Below, in pieces: positions 42,703 through 59,200 of a DNA stretch of 64,000 nt; the stretch's first letter is position 1, and the number at the start of each line of letters is the position of its first letter. Below the pieces are notes generated by a model that saw only the letters and a program-made list of their open reading frames with translations, did not search any database and was not told the DNA's origin. The DNA is from Epilithonimonas xixisoli (lineage in GTDB: Bacteria; Bacteroidota; Bacteroidia; Flavobacteriales; Weeksellaceae). Location of the stretch: NCBI RefSeq assembly GCF_004365655.1, contig NZ_SOEO01000003.1, forward strand, positions 310,001 through 374,000, written 5' to 3'. Position numbers and translations under genes: made by a program.

Positions 42703-42831
42703 TTAGGAGCTGTTTCCCGCTTTCCGTTGCAATCTTTTTGCCCGACGATTTCTTTCTAAATAGAACCTTTAGTCAACGCAAAAAAGGATTTCCACTGCAA
42801 TCGGGGCTAGGGGATTTCTCATCCAAACAAC
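42703..42831 (+). repeat. Interspersed repeat family A, copy 3
   Basis: AGGAGCTGTTTCCCGCTTTC, CGTTGCAATCTTTTTGCCC, CAACGCAAAAAAGGATTTCC and ACTGCAATCGGGGCTAG, ending TTTCTCATCCAAACAA. The second half is nearly identical to copy 2, and the end to copy 1. It contains an extra block (about 42742-42776) absent from copy 2. Confidence 0.75.
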
Positions 42832-51503: not shown

Positions 51504-51872
51504 ATGTCAGATTTAAAAAATTTAGCTGAAACGCTAGTAAACTTAACAGTAAAAGACGTAAACGAATTAGCTACTATCCTTAAGGATGAGTACGGAATTG
51601 AGCCAGCTGCTGCTGCTGTAGTAGTATCAGGAGGTGGTGCAGGTGAAGCTGCTGAAGAAAAAACAGAATTCGACGTAATTCTTAAATCAGCTGGTGCTTC
51701 TAAATTAGCTGTTGTTAAATTGGTAAAAGATTTAACTGGTGCTGGTCTTAAAGAAGCTAAAGACATCGTAGATGGTGCTCCTGCTCCAATCAAGCAAGGT
51801 GTTTCTAAAGACGAGGCTGAAGCTTTGAAAAAACAATTAGAAGAAGCTGGTGCTGAAGTAGAATTGAAATAA
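51504..51872 (+). CDS. rplL: 50S ribosomal protein L7/L12
   Basis: A 122-residue bL12 with an N-terminal dimerisation domain ([20 protein letters not shown]), an Ala/Gly-rich hinge and the C-terminal domain with [20 protein letters not shown] and [11 protein letters not shown]. It is present in four or more copies per ribosome and recruits translation factors. A strong terminator follows it. Confidence 0.98.
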
Positions 51873-51893: not shown

Positions 51894-51926
51894 AAACTCC
51901 CAAGCCTAGGTTTGGGAGTTTTTTTG
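51894..51926 (+). terminator. Terminator after rplL
   Basis: AAACTCCCAA (51894-51903) and TTTGGGAGTTT (51911-51921) form a 10-bp stem with loop GCCTAGG, followed by T. It separates the ribosomal-protein unit from rpoBC. Confidence 0.9.
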
Positions 51927-51941
51927 TGATATGATTCTGAT

Positions 51942-51973
51942 TTGCAAGATTTAAATATTAATTTGTATATTTG
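51942..51973 (+). promoter_or_regulatory. rpoBC promoter
   Basis: TTG (51942-51944), 21-nt spacer, TATATTTG (51966-51973), an exact TAnnTTTG. The predicted start is 5-7 nt downstream (about 51978-51980), which is exactly where the leader's 5' stem strand begins. Confidence 0.8.
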
Positions 51974-51979
51974 CAAATC

Positions 51980-52185
51980 TTTTGGCGCGACTTAATAATA
52001 TACTTTAAATAACTGATACTCTTTCATTTCTAAATGAAGGGGATTTTGTGTTTATTGATATAATGAAATCAATCCTTAAGAATTAAAATATTTTGCACTA
52101 CGCCGTGAAAAGATATACCGGTGTTGCTCTTAGGAAGAGCCAAGAATAAAGTAAAAAGAGCCAAGGTCTCACGTGCGCGCCAAAA
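51980..52185 (+). ncRNA. Structured leader RNA of rpoBC (candidate)
   Basis: TTTTGGCGCG (51980-51989) is perfectly complementary to CGCGCCAAAA (52176-52185), closing a loop of about 186 nt. Inside are a hairpin at 52021-52040 (TTCATT / AATGAA), a bulged stem CGCCGTGA (52101-52108) with TCACGTGCG (52169-52177), and a 6-bp hairpin GCTCTT / AAGAGC (52126-52140). AAGAGCCAAG occurs twice (52135-52144 and 52156-52165), so GCTCTT can pair with either copy. It may be a regulatory leader, e.g. for attenuation or a protein or ligand switch. I cannot assign it to a known family. Confidence 0.55.
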
Positions 52186-52280
52186 CACTTTTTCCTTTTG
52201 CCTTTTATCTTGTTTCTTAAGTTTTTCCTGATATTTTTTGTGAATCAAAATATTTTTTAACCCATTTTTCTTATAATTTT

Positions 52281-55200
52281 ATGAGTAAAACACAGGCAAC
52301 TCCAAAAGTAAAAGGAACAGAAAGAATCAACTTTTCCACTGCGAAAGGTAGAATCGATACTCCTGACTTTTTGGATATCCAAATCCAGTCTTTCAAGGAA
52401 TTTTTCCAGCTAGACACGCTTCCTGAGCAACGTTTGAATGAATCACTTTACAAAACGTTCCAGGAAAATTTCCCAATTACAGATTCTAGAAACCAATTCG
52501 TTTTGGAATTCCTAGATTATCTGGTAGATTCTCCACGTTACTCTATAGATGAGTGCGTTGAGAGAGGTTTAACGTATAACGTTCCTCTAAAAGCTAGACT
52601 TAAATTATACTGTACAGATCCGGAACACGAAGATTTCCAGACTGTTGTGCAAGATGTGTATTTAGGTCCGGTTCCTTATATGACACCTTCTGGCTCATTC
52701 ATCATCAATGGTGCAGAGCGTGTTATCGTAACTCAGTTACACAGATCCCCGGGTGTGTTTTTCGGACAGACTTACCACGCCAACGGAACTAAACTTTACT
52801 ATTCAAGAATTATCCCTTTCAAAGGATCTTGGATGGAGTTTACTACGGATATCAATAACGTAATGTATGCGTATATCGACCGTAAGAAAAAATTACCTTT
52901 AACTACATTGCTAAGAGCAATCGGTTATGAGTCTGATAAAGAAATTCTTCAGATCTTTGACCTTGCAGAGGAAGTGAAAGTTTCTAAAGCAGCGCTTAAA
53001 AAAGTAGAAGGTAGAACTTTGGCTGCGAGAGTTTTGAACACTTGGTTTGAAGATTTCGTGGACGAAGATACAGGTGAGGTAGTTTCTATCGAAAGAAACG
53101 AAATCATCTTGGATAGAGAAACTATTCTTGAAAAAGAACACCTAGATGTTATTTTGGATTCTGGCGTTAAGTCAATCTTGATCCACAAAGAAAATAGCAG
53201 TGAGTTCTCTATCATTCAGAATACTTTACAAAAAGATCCAACCAACTCCGAAAAAGAAGCGGTTGAATATATCTACCGTCAGTTGAGAAATGCTGATGCA
53301 CCAGATGAGGAAACTGCAAGAGGAATTATCGAAAAATTATTCTTCTCAGAGCAGAGATATTCATTAGGTGAAGTAGGTCGTTACAGATTGAATAAAAAAT
53401 TAGGACTTAATATCTCTCAAGAAAATCAAGTATTGACAAGAGAAGATATTATCTCTATCGTAAAGCACTTGATCGAGCTAGTTAACTCAAAAGCTGAGGT
53501 AGATGATATCGATCACTTGTCAAACAGAAGAATCAAGACTGTTGGAGAGCAATTGTCTGGACAATTCGGCGTAGGTCTTTCTAGAATTGCTAGAACGATC
53601 AAAGAAAGAATGAACGTTAGAGATAACGAGATTTTTACACCGGTTGACTTGGTAAATGCTAAGACTTTGACATCTGTTATTAATTCATTCTTTGGTACCA
53701 ACCAGCTTTCTCAGTTTATGGACCAGACCAATCCTCTATCAGAAATCACGCACAAGCGTCGTCTTTCTGCCCTAGGACCTGGTGGTTTATCAAGAGAAAG
53801 AGCAGGTTTCGAGGTTCGTGACGTTCACCATACGCACTATGGTCGTATCTGTCCAATCGAAACTCCTGAGGGACCAAACATTGGTTTGATTTCTTCTTTA
53901 GGTATGTTTGCGAAAATCAACAGCCTTGGATTTATCGAGACGCCTTACAGAAAAGTTGAAGACGGTAAAGTTGATTTACAAGCGGCGCCAACTTATCTTA
54001 ATGCTGAGGATGAGGAATACAAAGTAATTGCTCAGGCAAACGTTGATATGAACGATGATGGTACCATCAAAACAGACAGAGTTATTGCTCGTCTAGATGG
54101 AGATTATCCAGTAGTTGAGCCTCAACAAGTGGACTTGATTGATGTGGCACCAAACCAGATTTCTGGTATTTCTGCTTCATTGATTCCGTTCCTAGAGCAC
54201 GATGATGCGAATAGAGCATTGATGGGATCGAATATGATGCGTCAGGCTGTTCCATTATTGAAACCTCAGGCACCAGTTGTAGGTACAGGTTTGGAAAAAC
54301 AAGTAGCTAGAGACTCTAGAGTTTTGATCAATGCAGAAGGAACTGGAGTTGTAGAATATGTGGATGCTGAGAAAATTGTGATCAAATACGAAAGAAGTGA
54401 AGAAGACGATTTGGTTAACTTCGATTCTGCAACTAAAACTTATAAACTGACCAAGTTCAGAAAAACCAACCAGAGTACAACTATTACATTGAGACCAAAC
54501 GTAAGAGTAGGTGATGTAGTAGAAAAAGGACAAGTGCTTTGCGACGGTTATGCAACTGAAAATGGAGAGTTAGCTCTTGGTAGAAACTTAGTAGTTGCGT
54601 TTATGCCTTGGAAAGGATACAACTTTGAGGATGCGATTGTAATCAATGAAAAAGTCGTTCGTGAGGACTGGTTTACATCAATTCACGTGGATGAATATTC
54701 TCTTGAGGTTAGAGATACCAAATTAGGTATGGAAGAATTGACAGCAGATATTCCTAACGTTTCTGAAGAAGCTACCAAAGATCTTGATGAGAATGGTATG
54801 ATCAGAATCGGAGCAGAAGTGAAGCCTGGTGATATCCTTATCGGAAAAATCACACCAAAAGGTGAATCTGATCCTACACCGGAGGAAAAACTTCTTAGAG
54901 CGATCTTCGGAGACAAAGCTGGTGATGTGAAAGATGCTTCATTGAAAGCAGATTCTTCTCTTAGAGGAGTTGTGATCAACAAAAAATTGTTCTCTAGAAA
55001 TATCAAGGACAAAAAGAAAAGAAGCGAAGAGAAAATCAAATTGGAAGAGATCGAAAATACTTACAAAGCTAAGTTCGACGGTCTAAGAAATACTTTGATT
55101 GACAAATTAAATACATTGGTTTCTGGGAAAACTTCTCAAGGTGTACAAAATGACCTTGAAGAAGAAGTGATCAGCAAAGGAACTAAATTTACATTGAGAT

Positions 55201-56108
55201 TACTTCAAAATGTTGAAGATTATAACAATATCAGCGGTGCAGATTGGACAGTTGATGCCGACAAGAATGAATTGATCAAGCAATTGGTTCACAACTATAA
55301 GATCAAATACAACGATCTTGCAGGTGTAAAAAACCGTGAGAAATTTGCATTGTCTATCGGAGATGAGCTTCCTGCAGGTATTATCAAACTAGCTAAAGTT
55401 TACATCGCTAAGAAACGTAAATTGAATGTTGGAGATAAAATGGCTGGTCGTCACGGTAACAAAGGTATCGTTTCAAGAATCGTTCGTGAAGAAGATATGC
55501 CGTTCCTGGAAGATGGAACACCAGTAGATATCGTATTGAATCCACTTGGGGTACCTTCTCGTATGAACATCGGTCAGATCTACGAAACTGTTCTTGGATG
55601 GGCTGGTACTAAACTAGGATTGAAATTTGCAACACCGATTTTCGACGGAGCAGAATTAGATCAAATCACTGAATATACTGACAAAGCTGGTCTTCCTAAA
55701 TTTGGTCATACACATCTTTACGATGGTGGTACTGGAGAGAGATTTACGCAAGCAGCTACAGTTGGTGTAATCTATATGTTGAAACTAGGACACATGGTAG
55801 ATGACAAAATGCACGCACGTTCTATCGGACCATACTCATTGATTACGCAACAGCCGTTAGGAGGTAAAGCGCAATTTGGAGGTCAGAGATTTGGAGAGAT
55901 GGAGGTTTGGGCTCTAGAAGCATTTGGAGCATCCAATATCTTGAGAGAGATTTTGACTGTGAAGTCAGATGACGTGATTGGTAGAGCAAAAACTTATGAA
56001 GCGATTGCGAAAGGAGAAGCAATGCCTGAACCAGGTATTCCGGAATCTTTCAACGTATTACTTCACGAGTTACAGGGTCTTGGACTTGATGTAAGATTGG
56101 AAGAGTAA
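52281..56108 (+). CDS. rpoB: RNA polymerase subunit beta
   Basis: A 1275-residue core RNA polymerase subunit. The rifampicin-binding region is unmodified at the positions most often altered in resistant mutants ([20 protein letters not shown], then LSALGPGG, near residue 474). Other landmarks are [29 protein letters not shown] and the C-terminal ALEAFGA, then [12 protein letters not shown]. It is a little shorter than the E. coli protein, as usual for this phylum. It is preceded by its own promoter and leader and followed by rpoC after 123 nt. Confidence 0.98.
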
Positions 56109-56231: not shown

Positions 56232-59200
56232 ATGTCAAATAAAAATAAAACAAGTAGATTTAATAAAATCACTATTGGTTTAGCTTCACCAGAATCCATT
56301 CTTCAGGAATCGAGAGGAGAGGTCTTAAAACCAGAAACGATTAACTATCGTACACACAAGCCGGAAAGAGATGGATTGTTCTGCGAGAAGATCTTTGGTC
56401 CTGTAAAGGATTACGAGTGTGCTTGTGGAAAATACAAACGTATCCGTTACAAAGGAATTGTTTGTGATAGATGTGGGGTGGAAGTAACAGAGAAAAAAGT
56501 ACGTAGAGAAAGAATCGGACACATCGGTCTGGTTGTTCCTGTGGCTCACATCTGGTATTTCCGTTCTTTGCCAAACAAAATCGGTTATCTATTAGGTATT
56601 CCATCCAAGAAATTGGATATGATCATCTATTACGAGAGATACGTTGTGATCCAGCAAGGTATTGCTAAGAAAGCAGACGGTTCTGACTTTGATGACAAAG
56701 AATTCCTTACAGAAGAAGAATATCTGGACGTTCTAGAGACGCTTCCTGTAGAAAATCAATATCTTGATGATTCTGATCCTAACAAATTCATTGCGAAAAT
56801 GGGAGCAGAAGCGGTTGAAGAATTGTTGAAGAGAATCGACTTAGATTCTTTATCATTCGATCTTCGTCACAAAGCGCACAACGAATCTTCTAAACAAAGA
56901 AGAACTGAGGCTCTTAAAAGATTAAATGTTGTAGAAGCATTGAGAGGTGCTAATACAAGAATGATCAACAAGCCTGAGTGGATGATTATGCGTGTACTTC
57001 CAGTTATACCACCGGAATTGAGACCATTGGTTCCATTGGATGGAGGACGTTTCGCAACTTCTGATTTGAATGACCTTTACAGAAGAGTTATCATCAGAAA
57101 CAATCGTTTGAAAAGACTATTGGAGATCAAAGCTCCGGAAGTGATCTTGAGAAATGAGAAGCGTATGCTTCAGGAATCTGTAGATTCATTATTCGATAAT
57201 ACAAGAAAATCTTCTGCTGTAAAATCTGAATCAAACAGACCATTGAAATCCCTTTCTGATTCATTGAAAGGTAAGCAAGGTCGTTTCCGTCAGAACTTAC
57301 TTGGTAAGAGGGTAGATTACTCCGCTCGTTCCGTAATTGTTGTAGGACCTAGTCTTCAACTTCACGAGTGTGGTATCCCGAAAGATATGGCTGCTGAGCT
57401 TTACAAACCATTCATCATCAGAAAATTGATTGAGAGAGGAATTGTAAAAACTGTAAAATCAGCTAAAAGAATCATCGATAGAAAAGAGCCTGTAGTTTAT
57501 GATATTTTGGAAGGCGTAATGAAAGGTCACCCTGTACTTTTGAACAGAGCACCTACTTTGCACAGACTTGGTATCCAAGCGTTCCAGCCGAAGATGATCG
57601 AAGGTAAAGCAATCCAACTTCACCCATTGGTAACAACGGCTTTCAACGCCGATTTCGATGGGGATCAGATGGCGGTGCATTTACCTCTAGGTCCAGAAGC
57701 TATTTTGGAAGCGCAACTATTGATGTTGGGTTCTCAGAATATCCTTAACCCTGCAAATGGTTCTCCTATTACGGTACCATCTCAGGATATGGTTTTGGGT
57801 CTATATTTTATGACCAAACAATTGGATTCTACAGATGAGATGAAAGTAAAAGGCGAAGGTCTTGCTTTCTATTCTCCGGAAGAAGTAGAGATCGCTTATG
57901 CTGAGGGACAAGTTTCTCTTAATGCAAAAGTAAGATGTCGTCTTCCAATCAAAGAGAATGGTGTGATCACTACGAAGTTATTCCCTACGACAGTTGGTAG
58001 AATTTTATTCAACCAAATCGTACCGAAAGAATCTGGCTATATCGATGAGTTATTGACTAAGAAATCTCTTAGAAACGTCATTGGTCAGGTATTGGCAGAC
58101 ACAGATTTCCCAACTACCGTGAAGTTCTTGGATGATATGAAAGATCTTGGATATGCAAACGCATTCAAAGGTGGACTTTCATTCTCATTAGGAGACATCG
58201 TGATCCCAGTTGAGAAAAAGAAAATGATTGCTACTTCTATCGAAACTGTAGATGAGATCAAGGCTAACTATAACATGGGTCTGATCACAGATACTGAGCG
58301 TTATAATCAGGTAATTGACGTTTGGACTAATACCAACGCCAGCCTTACCGAAATGATTATGAGCAGAATGAAAGTAGATCAAGGTGGATTCAATTCTGTA
58401 TATATGATGCTTGATTCTGGTGCGAGGGGTTCTAAGGAGCAGATCCGTCAGTTATCTGGTATGAGAGGATTGATGGCAAAACCACAAAAAGCTGGTTCTG
58501 TTGGAGCTGAGATTATTGAAAACCCGATTCTTGCAAACTTTAAAGAAGGTTTGTCGATTTTGGAATACTTTATCTCTACCCACGGTGCTCGTAAGGGTCT
58601 TGCAGATACCGCTCTTAAAACTGCCGATGCTGGTTACTTGACCAGAAGATTGGTAGATGTTGCACAGGATGTTATCATTACAGAACAAGACTGTGGAACA
58701 CTTAGAGGTACAGAAATCACTGCACTTAAGAAAAACGATGATATCGTAGAAAAAATCGCTGAGAGAATTCTTGGTAGAGTTTCTCTTCATAATATTTACC
58801 ATCCGGAAACTGATGAGTTAATTGCTAATGCAGACGAGTTGATCGTAGAAGCAGTTGCAAAACAAATCGAGGAAGCAGGAATCGAAGCTGTTGAAGTTCG
58901 TTCTCCATTGACTTGTGAGGCTCAGAAAGGTATCTGTGCAAAATGTTACGGTCGTAACCTTGCAACAGGTAAAGGAATCCATATGGGAGAAGCTGTTGGT
59001 GTAATTGCAGCACAATCAATTGGTGAGCCGGGAACTCAGTTAACATTGAGAACTTTCCACCAAGGGGGTACTGCGGGTAACATCTCAGAAAATCCAAGTA
59101 TCGTTGCAAAACGTGATGGTATTGTGGAGATGGATGAGGTTAGAACGATTAAATCTGAAGGCGAAGAAGGACAATCAGCGGATATAGTTGTTTCCCGTTC

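Follow-up and report, generated by a model that had tools for sequence, protein, structure and literature searches.

In Escherichia coli, rpoBC is read through from rplJL. To our knowledge, the control of the amount of core RNA polymerase in bacteria is poorly understood beyond a few models. An attenuator before rpoBC in E. coli, with possible autogenous control, is recorded in a table entry and a reference title in PMC2659441 (Steward and Linn 1992). Among the Lactobacillales, the Lacto-rpoB RNA (RF01709) is tabulated in PMC2864571 with 'Y' for RNA, 'y' for cis-reg and 'n' for switch, and a passage of PMC7724050 places it among the cis-regulatory 5'-UTR elements of Enterococcus faecium. Passages of PMC7247131 treat ribosomal-protein leaders (S4, S15, S16 and L13) of Flavobacteria and Bacteroidia.

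The leader that we describe here precedes rpoBC in Epilithonimonas xixisoli, in a stretch of 64,000 nucleotides (the window), and in most of the Weeksellaceae. It resembles Lacto-rpoB in being a lineage-specific conserved RNA in the rpoB 5' leader, but the two occur in different phyla, and no relation was detected in a comparison made by the Rfam model alone rather than by structure; that model matches neither the window nor any of 18 related loci at the gathering score, nor the leader at E up to 10. As with the E. coli attenuator, attenuation is proposed just upstream of rpoBC; unlike that of E. coli, the Weeksellaceae rpoB has its own predicted promoter and structured leader and often lies apart from rplL. 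With the ribosomal-protein leaders of PMC7247131 it shares the phylum, lineage specificity and a place before genes of the expression machinery, the difference being that the genes regulated would here encode polymerase; rpoB does not figure in the passages concerned.

Leader control of rpoB is therefore known in kind (Lacto-rpoB and the E. coli attenuator), and the Weeksellaceae leader matches no catalogued RNA family. No family in Rfam 15 matches it, whether in the window and 18 related loci at the gathering score or in the leader itself at E up to 10, and such a match to a described element would have counted against the proposal made in an earlier note on this DNA. The L10 leader model (RF00557) reaches only 18.2 bits, at the rplL terminator, against a gathering score of 44. 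Neither 6S-Flavo nor Flavo-1 matches the leader at E up to 10; of these two, only a Flavo-1 RNA (RF01705, 66.6 bits) on the minus strand at 42709-42812 passes the gathering score in the window. A literature search, thin on subscription journals, returned no rpoB leader described for Weeksellaceae, and a term count of the main text of PMC11109978 found mention of neither rpoB nor the genera searched for.

The window carries, in this order, genes named from their protein sequences as tuf, secE, nusG, rplK, rplA, rplJ, rplL, rpoB and rpoC. A terminator-like hairpin (51894-51921) follows rplL and sets it apart from rpoB. Between this hairpin and rpoB lies a predicted promoter of the Bacteroidota type, the consensus of which is given in PMC7366714, and the earlier claim that rpoB has a promoter and leader of its own is borne out. 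From the promoter position, rpoB transcription is predicted to start at about 51978-51981, with some 300 nt of leader between promoter and gene. The features of the leader are collected in Table 1.

Table 1. Positions in the window of the predicted leader features and of the flanking genes.
Feature	Position	Strand	Basis
rplL	51504..51872	+	name read from protein sequence
Predicted rpoB promoter, TTTG / TAnnTTTG type: TTTG (51941-51944) and TATATTTG (51966-51973)	51941..51973	+	sequence
P1 5' strand, TTTTGGCGCG, at the predicted transcript 5' end	51980..51989	+	sequence; swap test; 91.2% of cells paired in genus
P2 hairpin, CUCUUUCA...	52019..52042	+	fold; by eye in 23 folds
A site, AAAATATTTTGC, adjoining P3 on its 5' side; complement of C	52085..52096	+	leader comparison; swap test
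P3 core hairpin, GC-ACU-ACGCCG, loop UGAAAAGAUAUAC (52106-52118), CGGUGU-U-GC	52095..52127	+	alignment; pair changes; same-genus pairing
Candidate alternative helix T, part of the P3 3' strand; may pair with AACACU (52184-52189), followed by UUUU	52120..52125	+	by eye
P5, weak purine/pyrimidine hairpin with the P1 3' strand in its apical loop	52154..52207	+	swap test
P1 3' strand, CGCGCCAAAA, within the P5 loop	52176..52185	+	sequence; P1 and P5 swap tests
B (GATATTTT, 52230-52237) and C (CAAAATATTTTTT, 52246-52258), the two sides of P4, a short AU hairpin close upstream of rpoB	52230..52258	+	leader comparison; swap test
rpoB, gene downstream of the leader	52281..56108	+	name read from protein sequence; rpoC next, at 56232

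The most strongly conserved part of the leader is its core, a near-invariant 50-nt stretch (52085-52137; alignment of 23 loci) that holds the hairpin P3, whose 13-nt loop is itself almost invariant. A covariance model of the core, run with stricter filters at which weak matches are lost, matches 158 of 197 genomes of the family and 25 of its 33 genera, with two matches each in genomes G021 and G004 and one in each of the rest. Eight genera gave no match, and the region upstream of rpoB was inspected in one genome of each: the core of G069 is cut by a contig end, only an rpoB fragment was matched in G048, and in the remaining six the spacer between rplL and rpoB is short, lacks the core and contains another hairpin. 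We note that most of the spacers listed for loci L113-L124 (e.g. from G054, G065, G024, G026 and G037), which come from members that lack the core and from other Flavobacteriales, have between rplL and rpoB a GGTTTAGRYC...GRYCTAAACC hairpin with T-rich sequence after it. In an order-wide sample, under such filters too, the core matched 31 of 196 genomes, and the three matches outside the family (G231, G274 and G331) were all marginal (E 0.03-0.05) and lay far from rpoB in the first two and on another contig in the third, so that we take them as chance. In a sample of the phylum, again with stricter filters, there were matches in 4 of 247 genomes, all inside the family. The genome of the window contains a single mismatch-free copy of the 15-nt motif GTGAAAAGATATACC.

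Among the matches listed, the named core loci, at least 80 in number, come from Chryseobacterium, Kaistella, Elizabethkingia, Riemerella, Bergeyella, Halpernia, Moheibacter, Soonwooa, Epilithonimonas, Frigoriflavimonas and metagenome-assembled genomes, the last labelled Weeksellaceae, Flavobacteriaceae, Flavobacteriia, Flavobacteriales or Cloacibacterium. The core stands upstream of rpoB in all 76 of the listed named loci in which rpoB was found, the other four being cut near the match, as it does in all 40 loci retrieved by the position of the core, some from genomes that are also in the named set. Across the 145 leaders (123 distinct), 105-227 nt separate the core from the ATG. A TAnnTTTG element precedes the core by 110-185 nt, its expected position, in 115 of the 123 distinct leaders, compared with 10.6% of letter shuffles; in G046, G074 and G055 the core is kept and no promoter of its own is visible. 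Taken together, the comparison of sequences supports the presence of a cis-acting rpoBC leader RNA in most genera of the Weeksellaceae, with rpoB usually transcribed from its own predicted promoter.

The separation of rpoB from rplL varies. In the genus of the window, 19 genomes have fetched stretches that contain both genes, and in 13 of these the gap is 2.1-14 kb; two more genomes, G003 and G009, have no rplL within 10 kb of rpoB. Among the matches listed, rplL lies no more than 700 nt from rpoB in 21 of 76 named loci and farther away in 13; the remaining 42 have no rplL in the available stretch, and 34 of these have at least 1500 nt of upstream sequence. The frequent separation of rpoB from the ribosomal operon fits a self-sufficient leader.

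In loci L031, L033-L035 and L037-L045, one to several variable genes are inserted between rplL and the rpoB promoter. They encode mostly large predicted secreted proteins that differ by species and have, by eye, signal-peptide-like starts; eight of the proteins were tested, of which one contains a Por secretion-system sorting domain and the other seven gave no Pfam match at E 0.01. A second, decayed copy of the leader is found in each of two loci, at L040:9090-9800 (G021), where a broken rpoB 5' fragment accompanies it, and at L045:8990-9150 (G004). In both genomes the intact leader downstream of the relic is of another sequence type, GGGCU/AGCCC, as in genus g47, and it is possible that the leader and the start of rpoB were replaced there by recombination. 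The occurrence of the leader sequence twice in these genomes led us to consider a mobile element with the leader as its attachment site, an idea that we rejected, the inserted genes being mostly secreted-protein-like and the extra copies having the appearance of decayed relics.

The pairing of P3 is well preserved in the genus of the window (98.3% of cells paired, 22 distinct leaders). Over 67 distinct rows from 80 loci, one pair is UA in 34, CG in 30 and GC in 1 and another is CG in 62 and UA in 3. In an alignment that was itself fitted to the model, the covariation score is 0.189, compared with 0.110 on shuffling, and none of 500 shuffles scored as high; the number of pairs changed on both sides, two, is no greater than in shuffles (1.6; 290 of 500), and columns 28/48 do not pair in 25 of 66. 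Each of the 40 loci retrieved through model matches contains GTGAAAAGATAT. The 80 named loci give no evidence on the invariance of the loop, since the pattern used to search for them included most of it. P3 is kept in G040 and G050, in which the 45-53 nt between promoter and core leave these leaders without P1 and P2. Elsewhere P2 appears as a hairpin that keeps its position while its sequence differs between genera (23 folds, by eye). The near-invariant P3 loop is likely to be a recognition site, and its partner would more probably be a transcription-machinery protein (RNA polymerase itself or a factor that associates with it) than a metabolite.

The two strands of P1 form a ten-base complement 186 nt apart, which the earlier note had pointed out; the match is exact and neither strand has another exact copy in the window. 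If one mismatch is tolerated, the P1 word has seven matches in the window, a number reached in 9 of 100 shuffles, and the enrichment is not clear. The strands had been expected to covary in relatives, and they do. When the strands of 20 genus representatives were swapped, none of 10,000 re-pairings was as good as the real one (mean -16.1 kcal/mol for own duplexes, -12.5 when swapped), and 17 of the 20 reach -14.0 kcal/mol or better. Across genera the strand pairs include GGCGC/GCGCC, GGGCU/AGCCC, GUUAUCCGUU/AACGGAUAAC, GGCGUU/AACGCC, GGCACA/UGUGCC, GGUGC/GCACC and GUUUGAAGCC/GGCUUCAAAC; within the genus of the window, P1 is fully paired in 10 of 22 distinct leaders. The swap test was drawn from the leaders with TAnnTTTG at 110-185 nt (133 of 145), which leaves out G046, G074 and G055, and, like the other permutation statistics given here, it is uncorrected for relatedness. 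A convincing P1 is absent from G023 (-7.3), G089 (-9.8) and G053 (-10.6 kcal/mol). P1 was also considered as a terminator and rejected, the sequence after its 3' strand not being U-rich in many members.

The hairpin P5 pairs GUG (52173-52175) with CAC (52186-52188) and AAGG (52163-52166) with CCUU (52194-52197). In a swap test on 24 leaders its own pairings average -8.6, compared with -6.2 when swapped, and none of 20,000 swaps was as good; it is weak in G010 and G002. The leaders used here, and the 27 used for helix T below, are those in which we could place by eye the P1 3' strand, or what is likely to be its counterpart, and the sets include five from the genus of the window and two each from two other groups. 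As the P1 3' strand sits in the P5 loop, the 5' end would dock as a pseudoknot. The comparisons thus support a predicted leader with a docked 5' end (P1 into the P5 loop), the hairpin P2 and the core hairpin P3.

In thermodynamic folding, which the earlier note had recommended, none of 200 dinucleotide shuffles does as well as the 211-nt leader (z -2.79). The inner part alone (52095-52190) gives z -0.52, with 56 of 200 shuffles folding as well. Several elements that the note had placed within this region are present in the window and not conserved. In 22 leaders of the same genus, the bulged stem 52101-52108/52169-52177 has 65.9% of cells paired and the 6-bp GCTCTT/AAGAGC hairpin 68.3%, each being complete only in the window's own leader, while the second AAGAGC partner for GCTCTT has 62.1% of cells paired and is complete in one leader; all three were dropped. 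That account left out P2, the P3 hairpin and its near-invariant loop, P5 and the pairing between AAAATATTTT sites. Of its central proposal, that a structured leader serves as a switch or autoregulatory site, the rpoB-linked structured RNA is strongly supported by conservation throughout the family and by compensatory change in P1, P5 and P3; the role as a switch or autoregulatory site is an inference.

A docked end and hairpins might do no more than protect or insulate the rpoBC mRNA, with no sensing, and so offset the lost cotranscription with rplJL. Such a constitutive structure would fit the start of P1 at the predicted 5' end and the position of rpoB apart from rplL in many members, but it leaves unexplained both the near-invariant 13-nt loop with its flanks and the retention of the core in the three members without a visible promoter of their own, and we regard it as improbable. 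We think it still less probable that the P3 loop and the docked 5' end form the pocket of a metabolite riboswitch that would bind a nucleotide, an alarmone or another small molecule. A pseudoknotted architecture with a near-invariant loop would suit this function, and the rpoB product consumes nucleotides, but there is essentially one copy per genome, found wherever checked only before rpoB and not before genes of nucleotide metabolism, P3 persists in G040 and G050 without P1 and P2, and no Rfam riboswitch matches.

The remaining paired elements are the AU-rich sites A, B and C. We found the string CAAAATATTTTT in 131 of 145 leaders (duplicates counted). C pairs with B to form P4, or alternatively with A. 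The A:C complementarity extends over about 12 bp (mean -9.3 kcal/mol; 6 of 20,000 swaps as good) and B:C is a weak hairpin (mean -3.6 kcal/mol; 83 of 20,000), both measured on 27 leaders in a test from which G050 and G053, with no recognisable A and C, are absent. These pairings raise the question of translational or mRNA-stability control, in which C would pair with B or A and set ribosome access or the decay of rpoB mRNA, with no terminator. The C site lies about 30 nt before the rpoB ATG, both pairings beat swaps, A and C have both changed yet still pair in G051 (-6.3) and more weakly in G040 (-3.2), and in L185 and L204 a GC-rich insertion lengthens the B:C hairpin P4, as though its loop had taken in a repeat. 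On the other hand, the three sites are low-complexity AU palindromes, the swap signal is probably due to a few divergent genera, G050 and G053 do without A and C, and C falls mostly outside what we take to be the expected ribosome footprint. We consider this explanation somewhat unlikely, and place it next after attenuation.

A and C are also near-palindromic and highly conserved, and the AAAATATTTT palindromes could be operators bound by a DNA-binding regulator, with RNA folding incidental. This seems to us hardly tenable. The compensatory change in P1, P3 and P5 indicates that RNA pairing is needed, the spacing of core and ATG varies over the whole range of 105-227 nt, and most changes in the A site put G for A, which keeps G-U pairing.

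The explanation that we prefer, tentatively and at something less than an even chance, is that the leader works as an rpoBC attenuator. With P3 folded and the 5' end docked, transcription would go on into rpoB. In the alternative fold the P3 3' strand would pair with sequence overlapping the P1 3' strand (helix T), and where a U-tract follows, as in some lineages, transcription would terminate. Recognition of the P3 loop by a protein of the transcription machinery would then give feedback on polymerase synthesis, replacing cotranscription with rplJL.

The strongest hint for attenuation comes from locus L237 (the same sequence as G050), in which the P3 3' strand is also the 5' arm of a perfect terminator, a hairpin of -27.0 kcal/mol followed by U8. 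The terminator region has z -7.32 and lies between the sole TAnnTTTG seen and rpoB, the order being promoter, core, terminator and rpoB, with an ABC-F-like gene (our naming) upstream in place of rplL. By eye, the 53 nt from terminator to ATG contain no other TAnnTTTG, so that rpoB expression should need read-through. A conserved hairpin that shares a strand with a terminator is the arrangement of Rho-independent attenuators and riboswitches; unlike these, many members of the rpoB leader have no clear terminator following. Strong T helices on the same strand are found in G040 (-12.1) and G023 (-15.9), both near U-rich sequence and both suggestive of a similar shared-strand terminator, and in G058 (-15.0). 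Many T helices have no U-tract after them, and in G053 the U-tract comes after P3 itself.

Across leaders, the results for helix T are mixed. When partners for the P3 3' strand were sought downstream, the best one fell in the region of the P1 3' strand in 25 of 27 leaders, with a mean z of -1.78. T is unremarkable (z above -1) in nine of the 27: the window, where the best T-type pairing has z -0.54 and does not rise above shuffles, G043, G056, G059, G061, G066, G068, G010 and G072, the last of which has by eye a terminator sharing the P3 strand, but one not above shuffles. Against the whole downstream segment, 70 of 20,000 swaps of the P3 3' strand were as good, or 67 of 20,000 without four divergent genera. 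A narrower test gave 35 of 20,000, rising to 1545 of 20,000 without G050, G040 and G023. Among the controls, the P3 5' strand against the same segment gave 136 of 20,000 and two others 17926 and 8539. At the variable base of the P3 3' strand, AACAC occurs downstream in 23 of 58 leaders with U, 7 of 57 with C, 1 of 5 with A and 0 of 1 with G (121 distinct leaders, relatedness uncorrected), an association on which we build nothing. Competition between P3 and a partner overlapping the P1 3' strand may be said to have partial support in these sequences. In view of the nine unremarkable leaders, the 1545 swaps without three genera and the control at 136, we hold attenuation as the best single explanation only at the tentative strength given above. 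A more specific proposal, that RNA polymerase or a polymerase-bound factor binds the P3 loop of a leader with its 5' end docked into P5, making it a sensor of free polymerase that would decide, during the transcription of rpoB, on the making of more polymerase, is in our view doubtful.

In most of the family, including Chryseobacterium, Elizabethkingia, Riemerella and Kaistella, rpoBC stands behind a leader with a core conserved nearly to the letter. As the leader has a single apparent target, its function can be tested directly with one reporter. It probably tunes the amount of polymerase that these bacteria make.
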